In this document: positions 1,407 through 49,181 of the stretch, piece by piece | Numbering within the stretch: position 1 is the first letter of the stretch | Layout of the letters: every line of letters starts with the position of its first letter | Assembly (NCBI RefSeq): GCF_041477585.1 | Contig: NZ_JBGNYA010000001.1 | Coordinates: forward strand, 868,001 to 932,000 | Length of the DNA stretch: 64,000 nt | From: Halobellus sp. MBLA0158 | Lineage (GTDB): Archaea > Halobacteriota > Halobacteria > Halobacteriales > Haloferacaceae | Direction: 5' to 3' | Translations under genes and position numbers: made by a program | Notes under the pieces: generated by a model | Seen by the model: only the letters and a program-made list of their open reading frames with translations | Database searches by the model: none | What the model was told of the DNA's origin: nothing

Positions 1407-3347
1407 ATGGACGTCCCCGCTGACGACGACGACCCCTTCGAGCGCCAACGCGAGCGCGCGGAGAACCCGATGCGGCGGCTCTTCGCGGAGTACGGCCGCG
1501 ACAACGCCACCGCGTTCCTCGTCGGGCTGGTCTCCAGCGTCGTCGCTCGCGTGCTCGACCTCCTGCCGCCGATCCTCCTGGCGGTGGCGGTCGACTCGAT
1601 CTTCTTCGACACGCGGCCCTTCTCGCTGTGGCTCGTGCCCGACGCGTGGCTCCCGGCGACGCAGATCGACCAGCTCTACCTCTCGGCCGGGCTCATCGCG
1701 GTCTCCTTCCTGGGCGGCGCGGCCTTCCACTGGACGCGCAACTGGGGCTGGAACGCCTTCGCCCAGCACATCCAGCACGCGGTCCGGACCGACACCTACG
1801 ACAAGATGCAGCGGCTGAACATGGACTTCTTCGCCGACAAGCAGACCGGCGAGATGATGTCGATCCTCTCGAACGACGTCAACCGATTGGAAAGATTCCT
1901 CAACGACGGGATGAACTCCGCGTTCCGGCTGGGCGTGATGGTGCTCGGCATCGCCGGCATCCTGCTGTACTGGAACTGGCAGCTCGCGCTCGTCACGCTC
2001 GTCGTCGTCCCGCTCATCGCCTTCTTCACCTACCGCTTCGTGCAGACGATCCAGCCGCAGTACGCCGAGGTCCGCTCGTCGGTCGGCCAGCTCAACTCCC
2101 GATTGGAGAACAACCTCGGCGGCATCGGCGTCATCAAGTCCGCCAACACCGAGGACTTCGAGTCCGACCGCGTCGACGACGTCTCACAGGACTACTTCGA
2201 CGCCAACTGGGAGGCGATCGGCACGCGGATCAAGTTCTTCCCCGGGCTGCGGGTCCTCTCGGGGATCGGCTTCGTGCTCACCTTCGTCCTCGGCGGCGTC
2301 TGGGTGCTCACCTACCAGCAGACCGGGAGCGCGCCGTTCTTCTTCACGGGCGGGCTCACTCCCGGGGAGTTCGTCGGCTTCATCCTCTTCACCCAGCGGT
2401 TCATCTGGCCGATGGCGCAGTTCGGCCAGATCATCAATATGTACCAGCGGGCCTACGCGTCGGCCGCGCGGATCTTCGGGCTGATGGACGAGCCCGCGCG
2501 GATCGAAGAGGCGCCCGACGCCGAAGCGCTGGCCGTCGACGAGGGCCGCGTCGTCTACGACGACGTCACCTTCGGCTACGACGCCGAGGAGACGACGATC
2601 GAGGACGTCTCCTTCGCGGTCGACGGCGGCGAGACGCTCGCGCTCGTCGGCCCGACCGGGGCAGGGAAATCCACGGTCCTCAAACTGCTGCTCCGGATGT
2701 ACGACGTCGACGAGGGATCGATCTCGATCGACGGAACCGACGTCCGCGAGGTGACGATTCCCAGCCTCCGGAAGTCGATCGGCTACGTCAGCCAGGAGAC
2801 GTTTATGTTCTACGGGACCGTCGCGGAGAACATCCGGTACGGCACCTTCGGCGCGACCCACGAGGAGGTCGTCGAGGCCGCGAAGGCCGCCGAGGCCCAC
2901 GAGTTCATCGAGAACCTCCCGGACGGCTACGACACCGAGATCGGCGAGCGCGGCGTGAAACTCTCGGGCGGCCAGCGCCAGCGGCTCTCGATCGCCCGCG
3001 CGGTGCTCCGCGACCCCGACATCCTCGTCCTCGACGAGGCGACCTCCGACGTCGACACCGAAACGGAGATGCTGATCCAGCGGTCGCTCGACCGCCTCAC
3101 CGAGGACCGGACGACCTTCAGCATCGCCCACCGACTGTCGACGATCAAGGACGCAGACCGGATCGTCGTCCTCGAAGACGGCCGGATCAAAGAGCGCGGC
3201 ACCCACGAGGAACTGCTCGCCGAGGACGGCCTCTACGCCCACCTGTGGGGCGTCCAGGCGGGCGAGATCGACGAACTGCCCGAGGAGTTCATCGAGCGCG
3301 CCAGCCGCCGGGCCTCCCGGACGGTCGAATCGGACGCCGACGACTGA
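1407..3347 (+). CDS. ABC exporter, fused permease and ATPase
   Basis: The 646-residue protein is a half-transporter of the MsbA/multidrug type that should work as a homodimer in the membrane. Residues of about 40-350 hold the six-helix transmembrane domain (hydrophobic blocks such as TAFLVGLVSSVVARVLDLL and AFRLGVMVLGIAGILLYW). The nucleotide-binding domain has Walker A GPTGAGKST at 415-423, signature LSGGQRQRLS from 519, Walker B ending LVLDEATSD, and the H-loop histidine in SIAHRLSTI. The start is the ATG at 1407. Further upstream the same frame is only antisense-like read-through. The substrate cannot be read from the sequence. Confidence 0.93.
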   Translation: MDVPADDDDPFERQRERAENPMRRLFAEYGRDNATAFLVGLVSSVVARVLDLLPPILLAVAVDSIFFDTRPFSLWLVPDAWLPATQIDQLYLSAGLIAVSFLGGAAFHWTRNWGWNAFAQHIQHAVRTDTYDKMQRLNMDFFADKQTGEMMSILSNDVNRLERFLNDGMNSAFRLGVMVLGIAGILLYWNWQLALVTLVVVPLIAFFTYRFVQTIQPQYAEVRSSVGQLNSRLENNLGGIGVIKSANTEDFESDRVDDVSQDYFDANWEAIGTRIKFFPGLRVLSGIGFVLTFVLGGVWVLTYQQTGSAPFFFTGGLTPGEFVGFILFTQRFIWPMAQFGQIINMYQRAYASAARIFGLMDEPARIEEAPDAEALAVDEGRVVYDDVTFGYDAEETTIEDVSFAVDGGETLALVGPTGAGKSTVLKLLLRMYDVDEGSISIDGTDVREVTIPSLRKSIGYVSQETFMFYGTVAENIRYGTFGATHEEVVEAAKAAEAHEFIENLPDGYDTEIGERGVKLSGGQRQRLSIARAVLRDPDILVLDEATSDVDTETEMLIQRSLDRLTEDRTTFSIAHRLSTIKDADRIVVLEDGRIKERGTHEELLAEDGLYAHLWGVQAGEIDELPEEFIERASRRASRTVESDADD

Positions 3348-3455
3348 TGACTCACGACTGACGACGATACTGCCGCGCGGCCGCACGTGACACCGCAGTT
3401 TCAGATCCGATACTCCGGAGGGAACACTGATCCGTGACGGGCGGGACCTCGGTCT

Positions 3456-3947
3456 ATGGACCCCTCCATCCGGGGCTCGACGCGTGCGGTTTCGCCCGCG
3501 ATCGGCACGGCGCTGATGCTGGCGATCCTCGTCGCGATCGTCGCGGTCTTCGGCGGCCTCCTCCTCGGCATCGAGATGCCGAGCGAACCCACGCCGCAGT
3601 ACCGCCACCAGACGGAGTACGTCGCCGACGGCGCCGGCAACACCGACGACCGCCCGTACGTGAACATCACGCTCACCGGGGGACGGATCGAACCCGGCGA
3701 GGACTTCTGCGTCGTCGACGGCGACGGCAACGCGGTGCGGTGGGACCAGGTCTGGACCACCGACGGCCCGCTCACCGCCGGCGACTACGCCCACATCGAC
3801 GGGTACGGCAGCGACGGCGCGCTCAATCACGCCTGCGAGGGCGAGGTCTACCGGATGGTCCACCGGCCCGACGACGGCCAGTCGGCGACCATCCTGGAAG
3901 TCGAGATCGACTCGCCGGCGGTCGGGCCCGCCGCGAGCCACTGCTGA
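3456..3947 (+). CDS. Type IV pilin-like protein (archaeal pilin N-terminal domain)
   Basis: This 163-residue protein has a class III signal. The short basic leader ends in RGSTRA, followed by VSPAIGTALMLAILVAIVAVFGG, so a prepilin peptidase (PibD) would be expected to cut between A11 and V12. The rest is a predicted extracellular beta-rich head with two cysteines (FCVVDGDG and NHACEGE) and a third near the C-terminus. The N-terminus matches the archaeal pilin/DUF1628 family. It stands alone, 108 bp after the ABC exporter, far from the pilus operon at 57-64 kb. It could supply a subunit to that or another pilus. Confidence 0.85.
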   Translation: MDPSIRGSTRAVSPAIGTALMLAILVAIVAVFGGLLLGIEMPSEPTPQYRHQTEYVADGAGNTDDRPYVNITLTGGRIEPGEDFCVVDGDGNAVRWDQVWTTDGPLTAGDYAHIDGYGSDGALNHACEGEVYRMVHRPDDGQSATILEVEIDSPAVGPAASHC

Positions 3948-3990
3948 CCCGTCGCCCGCCGAGAGCCACCCGTCGCCCGCGGCGTCCGCG

Positions 3991-4794
3991 TTACAGCTCC
4001 GCCCGCAGCGCCTCGTTCATCGCGTCGACCGGGGCGTCGCGGCCGGTCCAGCGCTCGAACGCCTCGACGCCCTGGAACAGCAGCATCCAGGCGCCGTCGA
4101 TCGTCGTCGCGCCCTCCGCTGCGGCCTCCCGGAGGAGCCGCGTCTCGATCGGCGCGTAGACGGCGTCCAGCACCGCGAGGTCGCCGTGGAGGTACTCGGC
4201 ATCGACGGGCGTCACGTCGTCGTCGGGCTCCATCCCGACGCTCGTCGCGTTGACCAGGACGTCGGCGTCTGCGACCCGATCGAGCGTGTCGAGGCCGCCC
4301 GCGGTCGCGCCGGGGACGTCCGCCGCCAGCGACTCCGCGCGCTCGACCGTCCGGTTCGCGACGTGGACGCTCGCGCCCGCGTCGGCGAGCGCGAACGCGA
4401 CCGCCCGCCCCGCGCCGCCCGCGCCGACGACGACCGCGTCTCGCTCTTCCAGGTCGACGCCGTGGTGGGCGAAGGAGCGCTCGACGCCCGCGACGTCGGT
4501 GTTGTGGCCGGTCGGCGGCGTCGTGGAGAAGTCGATCGTGTTCACGGCGCCGACGCGGCGGGCGACGTCGTCGGGCTCGACCGCATCGAGGACGTCCTGC
4601 TTGAACGGGATGGTGACGTTCAGCCCCGCGATCCCCAGCGTCTCGGCGCTCTCGACGGCCGCGGCCGCGGCGTCGCGGTCGGGCTCGAAGGTGACGTAGC
4701 GGGCGTCCAGGCCGAGCGCCTCGTAGGCCGCCTCGTGCATCGGCGGCGACAGCGAGTGCTCGACGGGGTTCCCGAGGAGTCCGAATACCTGCAT
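3991..4794 (-). CDS. aroE: Shikimate dehydrogenase
   Basis: 267 residues, normal length. It catalyses NADPH-dependent reduction of 3-dehydroshikimate in the chorismate pathway. Visible motifs are [11 protein letters not shown] at 14-24 (substrate binding), NVTIPFK ending at catalytic K65, NTDVAG with catalytic D100, the Rossmann motif GAGGAG at 124-129 and NRT at 147-149. The latter suits NADP recognition. The start is the ATG at 4794, immediately followed by a typical [15 protein letters not shown]-terminus. It converges on the pilin gene and diverges from the cation exchanger. Confidence 0.95.
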
Positions 4795-47150: not shown

Positions 47151-47885
47151 GTGAGCGTCCTCTCGCTACTCCGCGCGCGGACTCCCGCGGACTTCGCCGA
47201 TTGGTTCCGCCCCGGCGGTGACTACCTCCTCCGCGTCGCCGACGGAATGGGGTTCCACACCGGCGACCTCGCCGGCTTCCTCGACGAGGCCGAGACCGCG
47301 ATGCGGGCGGGCCGGACCGGCGCCGACGTCGCCCCCGCGGTCAATCGGCTCGTCGCGGCCGACCTGTACGCCGACGCCGCCTTCGGGCTCCCGTTCCTGG
47401 AGTGGACGCCCGCGTGGTACGAGCTCCCGCTGACCGCGCCGGTCGCGTACGCCGACTGGCGGCTCAGGCGCGTCGCCGACCAGTACGCGCGCACGATCGA
47501 TCACGTGTCGGTCCCGCGGTTCAGCCGCCCGAAGGACGTCGTCGCCCGCGGCGCGCCCGCGATCGAGTCGGTCTCGGGCTTCGCCGATCGGTTCGCTTTC
47601 GCCGATGCCGTCCTCCACCTGGAGTGGTTCGACTACGTCGCCGGCGAGTGCGGGATCGGGGTCCCGCCCGAACTGATCGCCGAGACCAGAGCCCAGACCG
47701 TCGGCTACTACGTCGGCGACCTCGCGCTCGACGACCTGGACCCGACGGTCCGCCGCTTCCAGTACCTGCTCTTCACCGACGACGAGTGGGTCCGGGCGAT
47801 CGACGAGCGGTACGGCCTCGACAGTTCCCTGCTCTCCCTGTGGGCGCGGATCTGTCGCCGCGAGCGCGAACGGTTCGGCAACTGA
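47151..47885 (+). CDS. Haloarchaeal hypothetical protein (244 aa)
   Basis: Starts at a GTG at 47151 (MSVLSLLRARTPADFADWFRP). It is an alpha-helical, aromatic-rich protein: LLRVADGMGFHTGDLAGFLDEAETAM, VAADLYADAAFGLPFLEWTPAWYELPLTAPVAYADWRLRR and FADAVLHLEWFDYVAGECGIGVPPELI. No family is recognised. Its stop codon overlaps the first base of the hairpin element at 47885. It faces the terpene-synthase-like gene. Confidence 0.72.
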   Translation: MSVLSLLRARTPADFADWFRPGGDYLLRVADGMGFHTGDLAGFLDEAETAMRAGRTGADVAPAVNRLVAADLYADAAFGLPFLEWTPAWYELPLTAPVAYADWRLRRVADQYARTIDHVSVPRFSRPKDVVARGAPAIESVSGFADRFAFADAVLHLEWFDYVAGECGIGVPPELIAETRAQTVGYYVGDLALDDLDPTVRRFQYLLFTDDEWVRAIDERYGLDSSLLSLWARICRRERERFGN

Positions 47886-47965
47886 TAGTGAGTACTCTCA
47901 CTGTGTATCGCCGAACGCCGTCACCAGGGGTGCGTTCGGCGGTACGAGACGAGAGTACTCACTAT
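47885..47965. mobile_element. MITE-like palindromic element between convergent genes
   Basis: Perfect 15-bp terminal inverted repeats (ATAGTGAGTACTCTC at 47885-47899, its complement at 47951-47965) enclose a second inverted pair, 47906-47918 with 47932-47944 (12 of 13). The 81 bases could fold into one long hairpin. No clear target duplication is visible at the flanks. It may be a miniature transposable element, or a bidirectional terminator for the two convergent genes. The perfect termini favour a mobile origin. Confidence 0.6.
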
Positions 47966-48008: not shown

Positions 48009-49064
48009 TCAGGTGAACCACCGGCTCGCGAGGTAGTAGCGGAGCACCTCCTCGGTCCCGTCGATGAACGGGCCGAGGTCGACCGTGTCGGCCTCGCGAT
48101 CGAGCGCGACGAGCCGGCGGTACTTGTCGTTCCACGTCGAGAGGAGCGCCGACTCGACGTCGTGGTCGTTGATGCGCGAGATCACGCGGTCGGCGGCCGC
48201 TGGATCCGGGTCCTCGGGGTCCGGGAGGTCACCGACGTCGACGATGCCGCGTTCGAGCGCCGACACGACCACGCCGGAACTGACGTCGCCCTCGCGGACC
48301 TCTCGCTCCCAGGTGCTGAGCCAGTTGCCGATCCGCGCCATCTCCTGGGCGATCTCGACCGCGTCCCGCAGGACCGGCAGGTCCTCCTGCTGGCTCGCGG
48401 GCGCGTACATCAGGTCGATGTCGAGGAAGCTGTGCATCCCCATATTGTGGGACTCGTACCGTTCGAGGTCCTCGACGGACGCCAGCTCCGGGTGTTCGAT
48501 GACGAGCATACTGTACTCGATCGACGTGACGATCTGGCTCACGTCGAACCGGAACAGCGGCGCGTAGCGGTCGAACTCCGGGCTCCGTTCGAGCCGATCG
48601 AGCAGCGTGTCCCACACCCGGACGGCGAAGGCCGCGTACGGTTCGTCGATGGCGGTCCCGTCCGACGCTCCCCCGTCGGTCCGCCCCGGGCCGTGACCGA
48701 ACGCGGTCCCGTCCGACCAGCCCTTGAGCCGAACGAGGCTGGTGATGGCGTCGAACGTCTCGTAGTCGCGCCGCTTCTCGATGAGGTCGTCCAACAGCGT
48801 CACGAAGATCACGAGCATCGTGTTGTTTATCGCGACCGTGTCGCGGTCGGACTCGTCGACGAACGGCATCACGTTCTTCGGCGCCAGGTGGTGGATCCAC
48901 TTCCACAGAAAGGTCGACCGGTCCCCGTCGAGGCGCCCGTACTCGGCGACGAGTTCCTGGATCTCCGGCGGCAGATCGTGCTCGTAGACGGACTCCAACA
49001 GCGCGACGGCGCGGTCCCCGTCGACCGAGCGGACCACGCTCGCGGCGGGTTCTCTGAGGGCCAC
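48009..49064 (-). CDS. Class I terpene-synthase-like protein
   Basis: 351 residues from a GTG at 49064. It carries the layout of a class I terpenoid cyclase. D92-D93-L-I-E96 fits the aspartate-rich DDxxE motif. N247, T251 and E255 in IGNWLSTWEREVREGD fit the NSE/DTE magnesium triad, followed by EGDV as in known cyclases. R202, about 45 residues before the triad, fits the pyrophosphate-sensor arginine, with the MGMHSF segment after it. All are helical contexts. The product and activity are inferred. The usual second triad aspartate is replaced by W248. Outward of the gene on the promoter side is the AT-rich region of the ABC operon. Confidence 0.62.
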   Translation of the reverse strand: MALREPAASVVRSVDGDRAVALLESVYEHDLPPEIQELVAEYGRLDGDRSTFLWKWIHHLAPKNVMPFVDESDRDTVAINNTMLVIFVTLLDDLIEKRRDYETFDAITSLVRLKGWSDGTAFGHGPGRTDGGASDGTAIDEPYAAFAVRVWDTLLDRLERSPEFDRYAPLFRFDVSQIVTSIEYSMLVIEHPELASVEDLERYESHNMGMHSFLDIDLMYAPASQQEDLPVLRDAVEIAQEMARIGNWLSTWEREVREGDVSSGVVVSALERGIVDVGDLPDPEDPDPAAADRVISRINDHDVESALLSTWNDKYRRLVALDREADTVDLGPFIDGTEEVLRYYLASRWFT

Positions 49065-49181
49065 TTTCGGAGTGACTTGCCTCTTCCTACCTAAGCGGTA
49101 TGGTACCGACAACCGACTCCGGCCGCCGGCGCACCCGCGGGCGCGCTATCGATCCGAACACTCCATTGACAGGATATTACC

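Follow-up and report, generated by a model that had tools for sequence, protein, structure and literature searches.

The question raised by this locus is whether a haloarchaeon carries a gene for a terpene cyclase, and if so what the enzyme would act on and when its product would be made. In plants, fungi and bacteria, compounds resembling scents and resins are made by class I terpene synthases. Cyclic terpenes are, to our knowledge, seldom considered in archaea, where the isoprenoids under discussion are membrane lipids, carotenoids and quinones. The gene lies in a stretch of 64,000 nucleotides (hereafter the window) from a Halobellus genome of 3.29 Mb, for which Halobellus clavatus, 72% identical, is the nearest named relative, and the original prediction had read it from its motifs as a terpene synthase of class I. 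Our profile and fold searches agree on that reading. The gene very likely belongs to a family of class I terpene synthases found in haloarchaea and some methanogens, and its product is predicted to cyclise an acyclic prenyl diphosphate in a Mg2+-dependent manner. The assignment to class I follows from homology, from the predicted all-helical fold and from metal ligands conserved at the expected places. The features on which the argument draws are as follows.

48009-49064, minus strand: terpene synthase-type open reading frame of 351 amino acids plus stop (GTG start at 49064, stop at 48009-48011), from the translation
48777-48791, minus strand: D92-D93-L-I-E96, a DDxxE metal-binding motif that closes helix 71-96 of the model on its C-terminal side, from conservation
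48441-48446, minus strand: N207-M208, candidate linker and effector, where helix G breaks between model helices 197-202 and 210-218
48333-48335, minus strand: R244, candidate sensor of the diphosphate; it lies on helix H, precedes N247 by three positions, is Arg in 82 of 88 relatives and occupies the position of Arg220 in Sat1646
48300-48326, minus strand: NSE-type metal-binding motif N247-W-L-S-T251-W-E-R254-E255 on helix 223-257 of the model, from conservation

Metal-binding motifs and homology

The family alignment sets in near the GTG at 49064, and not near the upstream TTG at 49112. Translation of 48009-49064 on the minus strand bears out the positions of the DDxxE motif (D92, D93 and E96) and of the triad (N247, T251 and E255) named in the original prediction. 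Taken alone, this motif pair is weak evidence for a terpene synthase. Defined as DDxx[DE] followed 130-180 residues on by [ND]xxx[ST]xxxE, both motifs occur together in 2.2% of 20,000 shuffles of the window protein and in six of 300 unrelated neighbouring open reading frames of 250-450 amino acids. The pair stands out beyond chance because it is conserved among 88 non-redundant relatives (less than 95% identity), and it is homology that decides. Within this set, D92 is kept in 84 members (three have Asn), D93 in all 88, and Glu or Asp at position 96 in 86; the triad is kept in 87 (N247), 88 (Thr or Ser at 251) and 87 (E255). Conservation extends to Arg or Lys at 254 (87/88), W252 (88/88), D260 (87/88) and D217 (88/88), and to N207 (75/88), M208 (79/88) and R244 (82/88).

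A search with terpene synthase profiles, proposed along with the original prediction, matches Pfam PF19086 (Terpene_syn_C_2) to 28 of 33 relatives, with a best E of 2.6e-8. The Haloarcula salina relative scores 28.0 bits, over the curated cut-off of 23.7 bits, and the window protein itself reaches 21.9 bits (E 1.7e-4) over residues 86-274, just 1.8 bits under that cut-off. As in the PF19086 family (terpene synthase family 2), both metal motifs fall within the matched segment; unlike that family, the archaeal members carry NWxxTWERExxEGD in place of NDxxSxxxE. Searching NCBIfam with the window protein gave no match.

Among sequences in the PDB, the sole terpene synthase found with the window protein is Sat1646 (about 120 aligned residues, E 0.025), which together with Stt4548 represents the bacterial diterpene synthases of class I (PDB 7e4n/7e4o; PMC9814573). 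The wider family alignment again places Sat1646 at the top (E 0.077), along with three other terpene synthase sequences (E about 0.5). These E-values are individually weak yet concordant. A profile-profile comparison against three terpene synthases from bacteria, reached through a Sat1646 fragment, gives E 0.0022 at an HHalign probability of 13% and is supportive only.

Predicted fold and active site

The AlphaFold2 model of the window protein, built from 33 alignment rows, is almost wholly helical (pLDDT 87, pTM 0.86), and that of the Haloarcula salina relative, built from 67 rows, scores somewhat higher (pLDDT 92, pTM 0.90). Both are consistent with the terpenoid synthase alpha fold that the original prediction had led us to expect. 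Every one of the 50 PDB matches listed for the window model is an isoprenoid or terpene synthase of class I (best E 1.6e-3, TM about 0.5). For the Haloarcula salina model, the top eleven are terpene cyclases (best E 4.2e-4), including 10-epi-cubebol, aristolochene, tolypothrichol, T-muurolol and geosmin synthases, VenA and AriE; lower in that list, T-muurolol synthase gives TM 0.62. The Foldseek E-values of both models are modest, at TM about 0.5-0.6 and rmsd 5-13 Å. In a viral structure library, which serves as a control, the sole high-probability match is a giant-virus protein named 'Terpenoid synthase'.

We further note that the fold matches also include FPP and GGPP synthases, as would be expected if the protein were a prenyl diphosphate synthase or another member of the fold that is not a terpene synthase. 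We regard this as highly improbable. The second DDxxD motif is absent and an NSE-type triad, NxxxTxxxE, stands in its place; Pfam polyprenyl_synt (PF00348) does not match the window protein even at E 10, and two clear PF00348 genes lie elsewhere in the genome.

In the window model, D92, D93 and E96 close helix 71-96 and the segment N247-E255 lies on helix 223-257. From these helix positions, both metal motifs of the putative terpene synthase would face one cavity. In canonical bacterial class I enzymes, the Arg that senses the diphosphate lies on helix G, about 46 residues before the triad Asn. The original prediction had assigned this role to R202. That residue is present, but it is Arg in just 37 of the 88 relatives, and such poor conservation leaves that role unsupported. 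R244 is the better candidate, because it is Arg in 82 of the 88 and its spacing to N247 equals that of Arg220 to Asn223 in Sat1646. A sensor Arg on helix G is not universal in the class, since both Sat1646 and Stt4548 have one on helix H (PMC9814573). In Sat1646, Arg220 on helix H is accompanied by the linker Asn182 and the effector Tyr183 (PMC9814573). Residues N207-M208 may be the corresponding linker and effector, although the alignments to Asn182-Tyr183 disagree with one another by at least one residue at this point.

The resemblance to Sat1646 extends from the Arg three residues before the NSE Asn (Arg220 and R244) into the motif itself, where NDLASYERD (residues 223-231) aligns with NWLSTWERE. 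The family differs in having Trp where Sat1646 has Asp, and the Asp after the Asn in Sat1646 is reported to serve Mg2+ (PMC9814573). The original prediction was right that W248 takes the place of the consensus Asp, but the doubt it cast on activity for that reason is not borne out by the family, in which the Trp is conserved together with the Asn, Thr and Glu of the triad. W248 is a family feature rather than a sign of decay, because Trp occupies the position in 82 of the 88 relatives. Even with the reported role of the Asp in Sat1646, the alignment suggests that W248 alone is no argument against activity.

Proposed reaction and substrate

In the mechanism that we propose, D92, D93 and E96 together with N247, T251 and E255 would hold three Mg2+ ions that bind the diphosphate of a prenyl substrate, with R244 and R254 assisting in holding it. 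Departure of the diphosphate would leave an allylic cation that cyclises in a hydrophobic pocket, and the cyclised product would be released as a hydrocarbon or an alcohol. The Halobellus genome holds two polyprenyl synthase (PF00348) genes and two squalene/phytoene synthase genes. A search of the genome with PF13243, which covers one kind of class II cyclase (the squalene-hopene type), gave no match. Given the two prenyl diphosphate synthases and the lack of a PF13243 match in the genome, the enzyme most likely acts on FPP, GGPP or GFPP, each an acyclic prenyl diphosphate.

A class I fold could also ionise its substrate without cyclising it, either releasing an acyclic terpene alcohol or olefin or transferring the prenyl group to a small-molecule acceptor. 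Acyclic synthases share the same motifs and fold, the linalool/nerolidol synthase 5nx5 is among the fold matches, and tailoring genes are absent nearby. Against this, Sat1646, the closest solved relative by sequence, is a cyclase, and we found neither an acceptor-binding domain nor a partner gene. We judge non-cyclising chemistry to be unlikely, though well worth keeping in mind beside the cyclase that we prefer.

The kinship with Sat1646 also bears on the substrate, as Sat1646 acts on copalyl diphosphate. A diterpene synthase of this type, fed with bicyclic copalyl diphosphate by a class II cyclase, would fit with Sat1646 being the closest PDB sequence and with R244 at the sensor position of the Sat1646 type. 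On a Micromonospora plasmid, moreover, a Sat1646-like gene adjoins a P450 gene and a gene with squalene-cyclase repeats. The window genome differs in that no squalene-hopene-type class II cyclase was found in it with PF13243, and the weak matches beside the second Halobellus copy of the family are toroid proteins without DxDD. Supply of copalyl diphosphate by a class II partner is very improbable in our estimate, and an acyclic substrate is preferred. A pairing of class I and class II genes was considered for these toroid proteins and rejected: their matches to SQHop_cyclase_C are weak, they have 429-476 residues and no DxDD, and they sit in an apparent polysaccharide cluster. The genes for these weakly squalene cyclase-like proteins (L129, 10837-12123, minus strand; L130, 10246-11673, minus strand) adjoin the second Halobellus terpene synthase copy as well as apparent sulfatase and nucleotide-sugar genes.

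Distribution, genomic neighbourhood and sensor linkage

The family is found in 11 of 17 Halobellus genomes and in 120 of 391 sampled Halobacteria genomes (about one third), spread over 39 of 86 genera. In our sample of the phylum, 18 genomes outside Halobacteria also carry it; their families fit the methanogens Methanosarcinaceae and Methanocella. A quick tree gives one supported clade for the main Halobellus copy, nested in a haloarchaeal clade of 76 rows; the methanogen copies fall outside that larger clade together with one bacterial copy. The second copy present in some Halobellus genomes (L013-L015) falls in another haloarchaeal clade. The bacterial member, which groups with the methanogen copies, lies at 3260-4405 of an 8-kb contig from a metagenome-assembled genome (L036) and reflects either transfer or a misbinned contig. 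One further genome (G272) has two terpene synthase genes in tandem (L094, 7826-10208). Six haloarchaeal plasmid records carry a copy, all annotated as 'hypothetical protein'.

Rare archaeal enzymes are counted in MARTS-DB (PMC12797696), which cites a study that by its title deals with terpenoid biosynthesis in archaea (Samusevich et al., bioRxiv 10.1101/2024.01.29.577750); another, later paper citing that study states that yeast served as the expression host for characterising archaeal terpene synthases (PMC13235557). As far as the title and the citing papers allow a comparison, the present family resembles those enzymes in being archaeal terpene synthases. Archaeal terpene synthases are already known, and the variant described here consists, relative to what these sources convey of Samusevich et al., of the NWxxTWERE motif, the candidate helix-H Arg and the linkage to sensors. 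A conserved family in about one third of sampled haloarchaeal species and some methanogens suggests that a class of archaeal metabolites has been missed, and the variant active site, with Trp after the Asn and a candidate sensor Arg on helix H, broadens the targets for genome mining.

The window gene is flanked on one side by a convergent open reading frame (47151-47885), a MinD-like ATPase and apparent cobalamin genes, and on the other by a sugar ABC transporter. Neither a terpene-tailoring gene nor a sensor is found among these neighbours. The original prediction had seen no function in the neighbourhood, which holds for the window and fails elsewhere, where relatives adjoin PAS/GAF sensor-regulators. 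Across 62 neighbourhoods, no shared tailoring gene (P450, oxidase or transferase) stood out and regulators were the commonest shared neighbours, so we rejected a reading of the locus as part of a biosynthetic cluster.

Outside the main Halobellus clade, a large Bat-type protein is encoded within 1.5 kb of the terpene synthase gene in 25 of 56 loci, which are related and not independent. Its gene lies upstream on the same strand in 12 of these 25, usually separated by a small HalOD1 gene, and is divergent in nine. By Pfam, these neighbours carry PAS, GAF, BAT and HTH_10 domains. Genomes of 3.3-4.6 Mb hold 8-42 BAT domains each, so that adjacency by chance would be expected in a few percent. The Methanosarcina-like copies adjoin PAS proteins, one of which is a PAS histidine kinase. 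No neighbour of the Bat or PAS type is found at the window or at four main Halobellus loci (L016 and L102-L104). Many relatives, unlike the window copy, have PAS/GAF sensor-regulators linked to the gene, so the terpene product is probably made on an environmental cue. Sensor-regulator linkage offers a direct route to learning when the product is made.

The linkage of many relatives to sensor-regulators would also suit a catalytically dead terpene-synthase fold serving as a sensor or binder of isoprenoids. The distant Methanosarcina-type branch has Met in place of R244 and Ser or Thr in place of N207, which could be read in the same way. The metal ligands, on the other hand, are kept in 95-100% of the 88 relatives, which would be unexpected if catalysis were absent, and we hold a dead enzyme to be very improbable. 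For a catalytically active family, we tentatively suggest a broader and rather speculative picture: an old terpene synthase family of the Halobacteriota, making a terpenoid on cue from PAS/GAF sensors that are Bat-type in haloarchaea and histidine kinases in methanogens. If true, archaea would possess a terpene under sensor control, acting as signal, pigment or membrane modifier, for which there is no described product.

Two further observations concern the sequence next to the window gene. The convergent open reading frame at 47151-47885 encodes a 244-amino-acid protein that has no match in Pfam or NCBIfam and is kept beside the terpene synthase gene in the Halobellus loci examined. Just past its stop lies a near-perfect inverted repeat of 81 bases (47885-47965; -59.1 kcal/mol, z -8.2), which the other Halobellus loci checked lack at this position. 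Several dozen copies of it are scattered over the genome, mostly 72-90% identical, and the 20 copies inspected are intergenic, in all gene orientations. The repeat belongs to a MITE- or REP-like family.
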